Below are positions 8,235 through 19,940 of a DNA stretch of 64,000 nucleotides, in pieces (positions within the stretch are counted from its first letter, which is position 1; the number at the start of each line of letters is the position of its first letter). The DNA is from Betaproteobacteria bacterium HGW-Betaproteobacteria-3. Lineage in GTDB: Bacteria; Pseudomonadota; Gammaproteobacteria; Burkholderiales; Burkholderiaceae_C. Where the stretch lies: positions 310,001 through 374,000 of the forward strand of contig PHCI01000002.1 of NCBI GenBank assembly GCA_002842205.1, written 5' to 3'. The notes below the pieces were generated by a model that was not told the origin of the DNA, did not search any database, and saw nothing but the letters and a program-made list of their open reading frames with translations. The position numbers and the translations under genes were made by a program.

Positions 8235-8654
8235 TCAGCGGTCGCCGGTGTTGTCGTCCAGCGCGGCGCTCCAGCGCGTGCCCCAGGCCTGTTGCAGATC
8301 TCGCCGGTCGCGCTTGGTGGGGCGGCCATGCACCAGCGTTTGAGCCGGCTCGGGCGCAAGGCGGCGCTGCTCGGCCGCCTGTTCGCGCGTCAGCAGGCTT
8401 TCGGCGGTTTCCGCATACAGCATCTGTGCCACCGGCGCGGGTCCGCGCTGCAGGCTCAGGCCACGCACCTGCACCACCCGCGTGACCAGGCCCTGGCGCA
8501 CCGTGATCTCATCGCCCACGCGCACTTCGCGCGCGGGTTTGACGTCCTGACCGTTGATCTGCACCCGGCCCTTGCCGATTTCGTCCGTGGCCAGCGAGCG
8601 CGTCTTGTAAAAGCGCGCCGCCCACAGCCATTTGTCGATGCGAAGGGAGTTCAT
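8235..8654 (-). CDS. hslR: Hsp15-like S4-domain RNA-binding protein
   Basis: A 139-residue protein whose first 60 residues are an S4 RNA-binding domain (RIDKWLWAARFYKTRSLA, GRVQINGQDVKPAREVRVGDEI). Hsp15 binds stalled 50S subunits carrying nascent chains after heat stress and helps recycle them. The C-terminal half is basic and low in complexity, as in the family. Its ATG overlaps the stop of the upstream histidine kinase by four bases, so it appears to be carried at the end of the tctD-tctE transcript. Its function has no clear link with tricarboxylate sensing. Confidence 0.85.
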   Translation of the reverse strand: MNSLRIDKWLWAARFYKTRSLATDEIGKGRVQINGQDVKPAREVRVGDEITVRQGLVTRVVQVRGLSLQRGPAPVAQMLYAETAESLLTREQAAEQRRLAPEPAQTLVHGRPTKRDRRDLQQAWGTRWSAALDDNTGDR

Positions 8655-10231
8655 TCCACCGGATTCTGCACCAGCGCCAGGGGCAGGCGGACCGTGGCGT
8701 CCAGCCCGGTCACCCGGCCGTGCTCCTCGCGGTTTTCCAGCTCGATGCTGCCACCCAGGGCCTGCGCGATTTCATGGCAGATGGCCAGACCCAGACCCGA
8801 GCCGCTGAGCACGTCGCCCGCTGAAAACGGCTGGAACAGCCGCTCGGCCAGCGTGGCCGAAACGCCCGGCCCGCCGTCGGCCACCACCAGCGCGGCGTGG
8901 GTGGCGTCGGCAACAACCCGGACCGACAGCGTGGCCCCCGCCGGACTGTGCCGAATGGCGTTGTGCAGCAGGTTGCGCGCGAGTTCGCGCAGCATCCAGG
9001 CGTGCGCGCGCACGGCAGCCGGTGCGGTGCTGATGTCGAAATCCAGGTCCTTGTCGGCGATCAGGGGCGACACGTCCAAGGCGACCGATCGCACCACGTC
9101 GGACAGGTCGATCACTTCGGTTCCGACCTGCTGACGCAACTGCTCGACCTTGGCCAGCGCCAGCATCTGGTTGGCCAGACCCGTGGCGCGGTCCACCGTG
9201 TCGTTGATTTCGGCAAGTGCCTGGCGCGGCTCCACGTCGCCGCGCAGTGCCGATTGCACCTGGGTTTTGAGCACGGCCAACGGGGTGCGAAGTTGATGCG
9301 ACGCGTCACGCACAAAGCGCTTCTGGTGGTCCAGCAGGCGTTGCAGTCGCAGCATCACGCCATTGGTGGCCTCGACCAGGGGCAACAGTTCACGTGGGGC
9401 GCCCGGGGCCTCAATGGCGGTCAGGTCGCCTTCGGGGCGGGCCTGCAGCCGCGCACTCAGGCGGCGGACCGGCCGGATCGTGCGCTGCACCACCAGCACC
9501 ACCACCAGGGCGATCAACCCCACCAGCACGGCTTGCCGCCATAGCGTGTCCTGGAGAATCTTGCGCGCCAGCGTGTGGCGCAGCTCCAGCGTCTCGGCGA
9601 CCTGGATCACCGCCATGCTGCGGCCACGCTCGCCGGCCACCGGCTGCAGCAAGACGGCCACGCGCACGTCTTCACTGCGGTAGCGGTCGTCATAGAAATC
9701 CACCAACGCCGCGTAAGGCGGGCGGCTGGGCAACTGCCCGCGCCAGAAGGGCAGTTCGGCAAAGCCGGACACCATCTCGCCGGCCGGGCTGGAGACGCGG
9801 TAGAACATCCGGCTCTGGTTGTCGGCTTCGAACGCCTCCAGTGCGGCATAGGGGACGGCCGCGCGAAGCTGGGCCTGATCGTCGTAGCCTTCCACTTCCA
9901 GCAGCTCGCCAATGGCCTTGGCCGACGCCAGCAAGGTGCGGTCGTACGCCGTGTTCACCGCTCCCAGGGCCTGCCGGTACAGGATGAAGGTATTGACCGC
10001 CATGAACAATGCCACCGGCAGCAGGATGCCCAGCAGCAACTGGCGGCGAAGGGAGGAGGATGAGACCCCCACGCTTGTCACTTCGTGTACGGCGCTGCCC
10101 CCCGGGGGGGTTGGCCTTGCTTGGGGCGGCCCGGCGCGGCGGCCGGTGGCCCCCACGCTCCCCACTTCGTGTGGTTCACTGCCCCTCGAGGGGGCGGAGC
10201 TGTCTTGGGCACGGCCCGGCGTGGCGCTCAT
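8651..10231 (-). CDS. tctE: TctE-like sensor histidine kinase with repeat-derived N-terminus
   Basis: A 526-residue membrane kinase. After an odd first 60 residues, a transmembrane helix (about 65-85) leads into a periplasmic TctE-type sensor region, a second helix (about 235-252), HAMP, HisKA (FVRDASHQLRTPLAVL), and HATPase_c with the N-box LARNLLHNAIRHS and G-box GSGLGLAI. TctE kinases sense external tri- or dicarboxylates and phosphorylate TctD. The ATG at 10231 overlaps the TctD stop in ATGA, which supports translation from here, yet residues 1-60 are built from two copies of an intergenic-type repeat. The adjacent tctCBA operon supports the name. Confidence 0.86.
   Translation of the reverse strand: MSATPGRAQDSSAPSRGSEPHEVGSVGATGRRAGPPQARPTPPGGSAVHEVTSVGVSSSSLRRQLLLGILLPVALFMAVNTFILYRQALGAVNTAYDRTLLASAKAIGELLEVEGYDDQAQLRAAVPYAALEAFEADNQSRMFYRVSSPAGEMVSGFAELPFWRGQLPSRPPYAALVDFYDDRYRSEDVRVAVLLQPVAGERGRSMAVIQVAETLELRHTLARKILQDTLWRQAVLVGLIALVVVLVVQRTIRPVRRLSARLQARPEGDLTAIEAPGAPRELLPLVEATNGVMLRLQRLLDHQKRFVRDASHQLRTPLAVLKTQVQSALRGDVEPRQALAEINDTVDRATGLANQMLALAKVEQLRQQVGTEVIDLSDVVRSVALDVSPLIADKDLDFDISTAPAAVRAHAWMLRELARNLLHNAIRHSPAGATLSVRVVADATHAALVVADGGPGVSATLAERLFQPFSAGDVLSGSGLGLAICHEIAQALGGSIELENREEHGRVTGLDATVRLPLALVQNPVE
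10066..10222 (-). repeat. Two tandem copies of a ~75-bp GC-rich REP-like element inside tctE
   Basis: Read in the gene direction, two degenerate copies begin with GCCGGGCCG, pass a C-rich then G-rich palindromic core (CCCCCTCGAGGGG in one, CCCCCCCGGGGGG in the other), continue with ACACGAAGTG, and end AGCGTGGGGG. They encode the N-terminal residues SEPHEVGSVGA and SAVHEVTSVGV of the kinase. The C-run/G-run core gives a strong hairpin. The composition is that of an intergenic repeat rather than a protein domain. Confidence 0.75.
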
Positions 10232-10908
10232 GCCGTGGCCTTCAGCAGGTAGCCCAGGCCGCGCAGGGTCATCAGGGTCACGCCGGCGTGGGCGATTTTC
10301 TTGCGCAGGCGGTACACCACCACCTCGATGGCTTCGTATTGCACGTTGTCCTCCCCCGGGAAAACGAGTTCGAACAGACGTTCCTTGGTGACGGCATGGC
10401 CGGGCTTGGTCATCAGGGCCTGCAGCAGGGCCAGTTCGCGCGGGGTGAGCTCCAGAATCTGGTCTCTCAGGTAGATCGCACCGCTTTCATTGTCATAGCG
10501 AAGTTCGCCCATTTGACGGGGGGTAGAGGCTGATTTGTCTTCAAATCCCGGGCGGCGGCGATGCAGTGCACGCAGGCGCGCTTCCAGTTCGTCCAGATCA
10601 AATGGCTTGGCCAGATAGTCGTCGGCACCGGTGTTCAGACCGATCACGCGGTCGCCCACGGTGCCGCGGGCGGTGAGGATCAGCACCGGTGTGCTCAGGC
10701 CGTCGCGCCGCGCGTGTGTCAACACCTGCAAACCGTCCAGCCCCGGCAAGGTGAGATCGAGCAGCACGACGTCGGGCGCGTTGGCGCGCCACTGGGCCAG
10801 TGCGTCATGGCCGTCGCCGCTCAGGCGCACCGTGATGCCGCGACGGCTCAGGGAGCGCTGCAGCGCCGTGCGCATGGCGGGGTCATCTTCAACGACGAGC
10901 AGATTCAT
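10228..10908 (-). CDS. tctD: TctD-like OmpR-family response regulator
   Basis: A 226-residue regulator. The receiver domain (MNLLVVEDD at the start, phosphoacceptor Asp in VVLLDLTLPGLDGL, conserved Lys in DDYLAKPFDLDELEARL) is followed by an OmpR/PhoB winged-helix domain (ELTPRELALLQALM, YEAIEVVVYRLRKKI, LRGLGYLL). Open frame continues far upstream but is not regulator-like, so 10908 is the start. It is divergent from tctC with a 144-bp spacer between them, the usual arrangement in which TctD activates the tripartite tricarboxylate transporter operon. Confidence 0.88.
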   Translation of the reverse strand: MNLLVVEDDPAMRTALQRSLSRRGITVRLSGDGHDALAQWRANAPDVVLLDLTLPGLDGLQVLTHARRDGLSTPVLILTARGTVGDRVIGLNTGADDYLAKPFDLDELEARLRALHRRRPGFEDKSASTPRQMGELRYDNESGAIYLRDQILELTPRELALLQALMTKPGHAVTKERLFELVFPGEDNVQYEAIEVVVYRLRKKIAHAGVTLMTLRGLGYLLKATA

Positions 10909-19889: not shown

Positions 19890-19940
19890 ATAGGCCAATA
19901 GCCCCCGTCAAATGGTAATAGTTTGCTATTGTTAATGCAA
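19890..19940 (+). repeat. Dispersed repeat, copy A (intergenic)
   Basis: A near-consensus copy: TAGGCCAATAGCCCCCGTCA, then AATGGTAATAGTTTGCTATT. It lies in the 231-bp gap between pstB and the solute-binding protein gene. It aligns end to end with copies D (60885) and J (57484), and with the reverse complements of H and I. Confidence 0.75.

Follow-up and report, generated by a model that had tools for sequence, protein, structure and literature searches.

A tctE-like sensor kinase gene begins with two tandem copies of a short repeat, and its translation very probably starts at position 10231, ahead of both copies, so that, judging from sequence comparison, the kinase would carry a disordered, repeat-encoded tail of about 56 residues. 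The repeat forms a family whose members are inserted in frame in conserved genes, with a bias toward particular reading frames, a preference for certain target sites, and insertions at the same sites in several species. The gene lies in the 64,000-nt stretch of DNA analysed here (the window). The kinase ORF (8651–10231, minus strand; 526 aa, ATG at 10231) contains the Pfam domains 2CSK_N, HisKA, and HATPase_c and adjoins the upstream gene of a response regulator with Response_reg and Trans_reg_C domains (10228–10908, minus strand), an arrangement that identifies the pair as TctE-like and TctD-like. The tctE start codon overlaps the tctD stop codon in an ATGA (10228–10231, minus strand), and a Shine-Dalgarno-like GAAGG, read by eye, is found 7 nt before the ATG (10239–10243, minus strand).

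Both repeat units lie on the minus strand. Unit 1 spans 10145–10231 (core 10150–10209; read as ...GSEPHEVGSVGA) and unit 2 spans 10057–10147 (core 10066–10125; read as ...GGSAVHEVTSVGV), with limits set by a family profile whose ends are soft. Together they occupy the beginning of the gene, from the ATG within the ATGA to approximately codon 56, followed by SSSSLRRQ (residue 57 on) and the first membrane helix. Directly 3' of unit 2 lies CTCATC (10059–10064, minus strand), which fits the AT-rich target preference of the family. The sequence-only reading had described two tandem GC-rich units of about 75 bp with the translations HEVGSVGA and HEVTSVGV. The translations are correct, the G+C content of the units is 74.7% and 72.4% compared with 65.1% for the window, and the tandem arrangement was borne out as direct repeats of 60 nt (10066–10125 and 10150–10209) that are 73% identical, but the length was underestimated, the start-to-start spacing being 84 nt. 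A 22-nt core pattern allowing up to 3 mismatches matched exactly twice in the window, both times on the minus strand and at the tctE units, against a mean of 0.06 matches in 100 shuffles. In an AlphaFold2 model of the kinase built with 35 sequences (mean pLDDT of 79.2 and pTM of 0.49), residues 1–60 had a pLDDT of approximately 34–45 and no secondary structure, followed by a helix at residues 61–109; with few aligned rows covering the tail, its low pLDDT is in part to be expected.

A different repeat, approximately AGCCCCCGTCAAATGG, occurs in the linker between the two domains of TctD (10509–10524, minus strand) and perhaps also encodes an in-frame peptide. It matched eight times in the window with up to 3 mismatches against 0.91 expected, the other matches being at 19900, 25060, 28947, 53119, 57497, 58625, and 60890.

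The family to which the tctE units belong was followed with the core pattern CACGAAGTGNNNAGCGTGGGGG, allowing up to 2 mismatches. This pattern had 100 matches in the source genome, where the reversed control pattern had none, and a profile built from 98 seeds recovered at least 144 distinct copies in 58 stretches around these matches, full profile matches being approximately 80–100 nt long. In a sample of 399 genomes of the host's taxonomic family, 179 had at least one match; the source genome had the most, followed by G199 (76), G043 (68), G300 (65), and G069 (60). The reversed control had a single match in about 23 of the 399 genomes, as counted from the table, so genomes with one match may represent chance. 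The pattern was found in 25 of the 29 locus-addressed genomes, including those of Caenimonas koreensis (11), Ramlibacter sp. WS9 (23), and Variovorax paradoxus (20) as well as metagenome-assembled genomes of Polaromonas (19) and Hydrogenophaga (37). Weaker matches were seen on five plasmid records, two from Variovorax and one each from Paraburkholderia, Burkholderia, and Acidovorax. By a crude codon-score gene caller, 108 of the 144 copies in the source genome lie between genes, 30 inside genes, and 6 partly inside; the earlier impression that the units look intergenic thus holds for the majority and fails for the 30 copies called inside genes. Several genes contain a longer variant of the unit, read as approximately GLRAAAPGLPAQGRTARRDADSGSVSSSAVHEVTSVGA (L124, L126, L130, L147, and L174). 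Four contigs of the source genome, C3, C4, C19, and C32 (L127, L129, L157, and L176), end or begin within about 100 nt of repeat copies, as if the assembly broke there.

Within genes, the units are read in a preferred frame. This was first seen in the source genome, where anchoring on the GTG codon placed 16 of 17 same-strand and all 5 opposite-strand copies in the same respective frames. A mixed count obtained from profile positions (12/9/7 for same-strand and 1/3/4 for opposite-strand copies) turned out to be an artefact of indels in the profile alignment, which the GTG anchoring resolves. The wider set comprised 153 clusters, with 68 from the source genome, 58 from G199 (63 of its 76 pattern matches), and 27 from G420 (29 of 37). 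Clusters were taken as mid-gene when the frame was open and each flank spanned 40 codons or more with an average codon score above 0.12, using a codon table trained on the source genome; 25 clusters qualified (16 from the source genome, 3 from G199, and 6 from G420). Sixteen of them read ...HEVGSVGA in the sense orientation, seven read APTLPASRGSLPPEGA in the antisense orientation, and two used another sense frame, so that 23 of 25 lie in one fixed frame per orientation. When the frame of each cluster was drawn from those open in it (on average 4.16), this count was reached by 0 of 100,000 simulations. Taken separately, the sense strand (16/18) was matched by 60 and the antisense strand (7/7) by 1,389 of the simulations, and outside the source genome 8 of 9 clusters followed the rule (reached by 1,072 of 100,000). 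Putative terminal tails were less clean, with 9 of 15 N-terminal tails in the sense frame and 3 of 4 at the C-terminus; further probable unit tails were seen in AroE-like, LivG-like, and HPPD proteins, only HPPD being named by search. The tctE units use the sense frame. As far as can be judged by reading, sense and antisense inserts seem to set their junctions at different codon phases, which would make selection on the encoded peptide a simpler cause of the frame bias than a phase effect at the target.

The genes that host units in the source genome, named by best-matching family, include FtsY, TrpE, PurL, GcvP, cyclopropane fatty acid synthase, PgmG, MetX, and CysN, the matches of TrpE, cyclopropane fatty acid synthase, and PgmG scoring under the curated cut-offs; a UvrD helicase, a 3-hydroxyacyl-CoA dehydrogenase, a regulator with Response_reg and GerE domains, a methylmalonyl-CoA mutase, a CoA transferase, and others are also affected. 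Alignment to solved structures located several inserts. The FtsY insert comprises 28 residues (262–289) between positions 409 and 410 of E. coli FtsY, with homology on both sides. In TrpE, residues 299–447, 149 residues with no counterpart, fall between positions 326 and 327 of 7bvd, and the GcvP insert lies at approximately residues 746–800. The TrpE gene of the source genome (L174:5977–7923) has five tandem profile matches of the repeat in the middle of the enzyme. A structural model of FtsY was poor (mean pLDDT of 49.9 with 12 sequences) and indicated only that the insert, itself unstructured, is located between a helix and a strand.

Orthologs of the host genes were sought in 12 chosen genomes. 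None of the 11 FtsY orthologs found and none of the 12 3-hydroxyacyl-CoA dehydrogenase orthologs has a unit at the site. The TrpE site is empty in 11 of 12 orthologs, and G098 carries a unit of its own there. Among the 11 MetX orthologs found, four have antisense units at the very loop where MetX of the source genome has sense units, three of them in frame (G043, G133, and G336), and the opposite orientations at one loop in different species indicate separate insertions. In the fourth (L224 of G049, seemingly the metagenome-assembled Hydrogenophaga of L066), the unit breaks the frame, which may reflect real damage or an assembly error.

Base composition next to the units points to a target preference at one end. 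Among 143 clean 3' ends, the bases at +1 to +5 after GTGGGGGC match CATAT in at least 4 positions in 36 cases, compared with 1 case ten bases further, and the A+T content is 57.6% at +1 to +10 compared with 40.8% at +13 to +22. Because this consensus was drawn from the same 143 ends, the test was repeated with a consensus from the 60 ends of the source genome. This consensus was CATAT once more, and the 83 ends from the other two genomes gave counts of 22 and 1. On the 5' side, where anchoring was possible for 34 of the 153 clusters, no comparable motif was found. The putative target is thus AT-rich and about CATAT[CT]. A preference of this kind, confined to one end and lying next to hairpins, is reminiscent of single-strand (Y1-type) transposition. 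At tctE the flank is CTCATC, and several unit-free relatives have GCCATCTCGCT or a near match at that place; the fit of these sequences to the motif may explain repeated insertion at the tctE start.

The sequence-only reading had also ascribed strong hairpin cores to the units. Single-sequence folding gave z-scores of 1.43, -0.84, 0.03, and -1.30, no better than shuffles and with no structure signal, but compensated base pairs across 143 aligned units support the claim. Their consensus fold has an outer stem enclosing two hairpins, and double changes (G-C/C-G, U-A/C-G, and A-U/G-C) preserve the pairing in and beside the CAC-GAA-GTG hairpin. In comparison with 1000 shuffles of the 3' letters, in which relatedness among the units remains and by which 7 of the 20 predicted pairs were tested, three pairs in this hairpin region were paired in 97.2% vs 54.7%, 98.6% vs 71.9%, and 99.3% vs 81.8% of the units. 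Two pairs of the C-run hairpin were also above the shuffles (97.2% vs 80.5% and 94.4% vs 82.1%), and the two outer-stem pairs tested were not (84.5% vs 84.7% and 88.0% vs 88.0%). Covariation is what makes the case for a structured unit.

To place the tctE units among relatives, we compared 89 kinase loci (30 including that of the source genome and 59 more), some of which share a genome; in two (L113 and L114) the match covers residue 198 onward only. Four of the 89 loci carry sense units at the tctE start (the source genome, G098, G199, and G336), at the same place and in the same frame, and all four ORFs are open from an ATGA or GTGA start at the tctD/tctE overlap. An [AGT]TGA start is used at 68 of the 87 loci whose start could be set. 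The comparison with unit-free TctE proposed by the sequence-only reading showed that the 82 loci without units have 0–30 residues (median 9) before the conserved core, compared with 40, 49, 56, and 66 in the four sense-unit kinases, whose tails differ widely in length and sequence and align too poorly to measure selection. A scan of the 89 loci for sense units alone gave these four, and a two-strand profile scan added a fifth, L056 (G003). There, two antisense units lie between tctD and tctE, the units contain a stop in the kinase frame, and a fresh ATGA immediately beyond them provides the kinase start, MKWHRQLSLRRY. Each antisense unit of L056 is followed by a copy of GGCGATGAAAT, which places the fresh ATGA just before the kinase core. 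By this sequence, units can act as a plain spacer at the tctD/tctE junction, and L056 is unlike the four sense cases.

On a kinase tree of 80 distinct sequences with tails trimmed, 4 changes of the sense-unit trait are required, 3 or more of them forced, and its clustering does not exceed that of shuffled labels. G098, G199, and G336 group with the unit-free G394 and a metagenome-assembled Polaromonas whose kinase begins MKNVGAISLRR, which may be a unit remnant. That the source genome and the Polaromonas-like group gained units separately is a tentative reading that depends on weak branches; the genus of the source genome contains this genome only.

The sequence-only reading had left two alternatives, a kinase that truly starts at 10231 with a repeat-derived tail and a kinase that starts later, with the repeat separating the two genes. 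The former is well supported by a start position common to most relatives, a unit frame and orientation that are the same in four species, and the frame rule inside other genes. For the latter to apply here, translation would begin within the units or beyond them. The candidates are the GTG of codon 54 in unit 2 (at 10072; 10070–10072, minus strand), which is the last one inside a unit and the main rival start, and the TTG of codon 65; either would leave the units as an untranslated tctD/tctE spacer. The resulting N-terminus, MGVSSSSLRRQ..., would match the usual length in relatives, GAAG occurs 8 nt before the codon-54 GTG, and the codon-score caller set the tctE start of the source genome after the units and called them intergenic. 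Furthermore, the antisense units of L056 do serve as a spacer, a case that lowered our confidence in the tailed kinase and raised that in the spacer, and the Polaromonas start (L065) resembles the last codons of a unit, possibly put to use as a start after deletion. Against this, no ATG or GTG lies between the units and the predicted helix at residue 61. The only in-frame ATG, GTG, or TTG codons between codons 1 and 70 are GTGs at 23, 26, 51, and 54, all within units, and the TTG at 65, which falls within the predicted helix, so any later start codon would have to come from the repeat or lie inside the helix. All four sense-unit genes also begin with ATGA or GTGA at the tctD stop and stay open across tails of 40–66 codons; a spacer requires neither feature, and L056, with in-frame stops and a fresh ATG beside the core, has neither. 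The tctE units moreover use the frame that most units use inside genes, and a later start would lose the coupling to tctD. We therefore regard an untranslated spacer at this locus as quite unlikely and retain the start at 10231.

Two other explanations concern what the units do. They might act at the RNA level in the tctD-tctE operon, as a terminator, an RNase site, or an attenuator, their coding being incidental. The conserved, compensated hairpins agree with this, as does the Bordetella BRE region that gives rise to the small RNAs bprJ1 and bprJ2 (in the portion of PMC3110155 cited here). However, units occur inside the genes of FtsY, TrpE, PurL, and GcvP, whose expression would suffer from termination or cleavage, and both orientations are found in genes. 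An Rfam search of 9900–10400 gave nothing above the gathering score, its one weak match being to ilvH (22.9 bits vs 55.1; 9983–10061, plus strand), almost wholly outside the units. On balance, we consider an RNA-level role unlikely. It is highly improbable that the tail has been put to use in altering kinase signalling or membrane insertion. Sense units at the tctE start in four species would suit such a use, but their tails vary in length and sequence, the close relatives L038 and L065 have no tail, the trait is scattered on the tree as under shuffled labels, and the target preference, to which the site conforms, can account for the recurrence without function.

The explanation we favour is that the units are copies of a structured short repeat of approximately 70–90 nt, often in tandem at steps of about 84 nt, which is probably mobile and would insert 5' of AT-rich sites both in genes and between them. 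Inside genes the repeat would be tolerated because it is mostly stop-free and encodes, in a single preferred frame for each orientation, a Pro/Ser/Gly/Ala-rich peptide that is probably disordered. At tctE it would have inserted downstream of the start codon and upstream of the first membrane helix, so that translation from 10231 yields an unstructured tail of about 56 residues, presumably cytoplasmic and neutral. More broadly, and tentatively, the family could be a betaproteobacterial mobile palindrome adapted to translation, with one open, disorder-coding frame per strand, that inserts 5' of AT-rich sites and, through a mobilising enzyme yet to be found, repeatedly and independently remodels the same loops and tails (TctE, MetX, and TrpE) across species. 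Protein-coding palindromes are best known from Rickettsia, and the same behaviour is now seen in relatives of Ramlibacter, Hydrogenophaga, and Polaromonas. The filled and empty sites in many genomes, the frame rule, and the target preference make the tolerance of proteins for inserted mobile DNA and the search for the mobilising enzyme directly testable. Automated gene calls at unit sites, both starts and linkers, should be checked against the repeat family.

The nearest named family is BRE, likened here by description and not by sequence. BRE, described from Bordetella and other Betaproteobacteria, is a repeat of about 90 bp that occurs in tandem; it is mostly intergenic, with some copies wholly in coding sequences and no function assigned, and a Bordetella region with a BRE is transcribed as the small RNAs named above (Hot et al. 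2011, PMC3110155, as far as the cited parts go). The parts of this paper cited here give a full length of 75–91 bp, a high G+C content, and Comamonadaceae among the hosts, much as for our unit. The 84-nt spacing and profile matches of approximately 80–100 nt agree in size, the copies are likewise tandem with few or no nucleotides between them, and they likewise spread in Comamonadaceae, mostly between genes and some in coding sequence. The copy numbers given for BRE are lower (at most 29, in Polaromonas JS666, by another method), and the frame rule, the target preference, and the in-frame inserts in named enzymes seen here are absent from those parts of the BRE description (PMC3110155).

In its mode of action the repeat appears to work like RPE, the small palindromic elements fused in frame in conserved protein genes of Rickettsia; according to the portions of the sources drawn on, an RPE-bearing guanylate kinase is translated and active with a changed substrate affinity (PMC2229807, PMC10969869). 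The likeness consists of in-frame insertion in unrelated conserved proteins with homology on both flanks and of a conserved peptide in a preferred frame (23 of 25; 8 of 9 outside the source genome). RPE belong to a different organism and are given as 105–146 bp, whereas the unit here is about 84 nt and often tandem. REP/RAYT systems share the high copy number of short palindromes in bacterial genomes. The REP unit is 20–40 bp with a GTAG or CGTC tag in the part of the source used (PMC3733652), compared with about 84 nt and the end GTGGGGGC here, the tag being judged by eye. A RAYT/Y1 transposase (PF01797) was also tried as a partner and rejected: none of 14 Y1 loci from 11 genomes (2 from the source genome and 12 from 10 of 12 repeat-rich genomes) had a unit in the flanks, mostly 1.5 kb on each side, and no Y1 transposase was detected in two genomes with 65 and 38 pattern matches. 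ERIC, Correia/NEMIS, and other bacterial MITEs are likewise small and non-autonomous, and some of them contribute ORFs that are joined in frame to genes (PMC2229807, in the part cited); for our unit, neither terminal inverted repeats nor target duplications were established. Among the matches listed for the open-access literature, no paper described an in-frame palindrome of Betaproteobacteria that follows a frame rule or shows a target preference. What is new here relative to these systems is the frame rule, the one-ended preference for AT-rich targets, and the recurrent insertion at the same sites.
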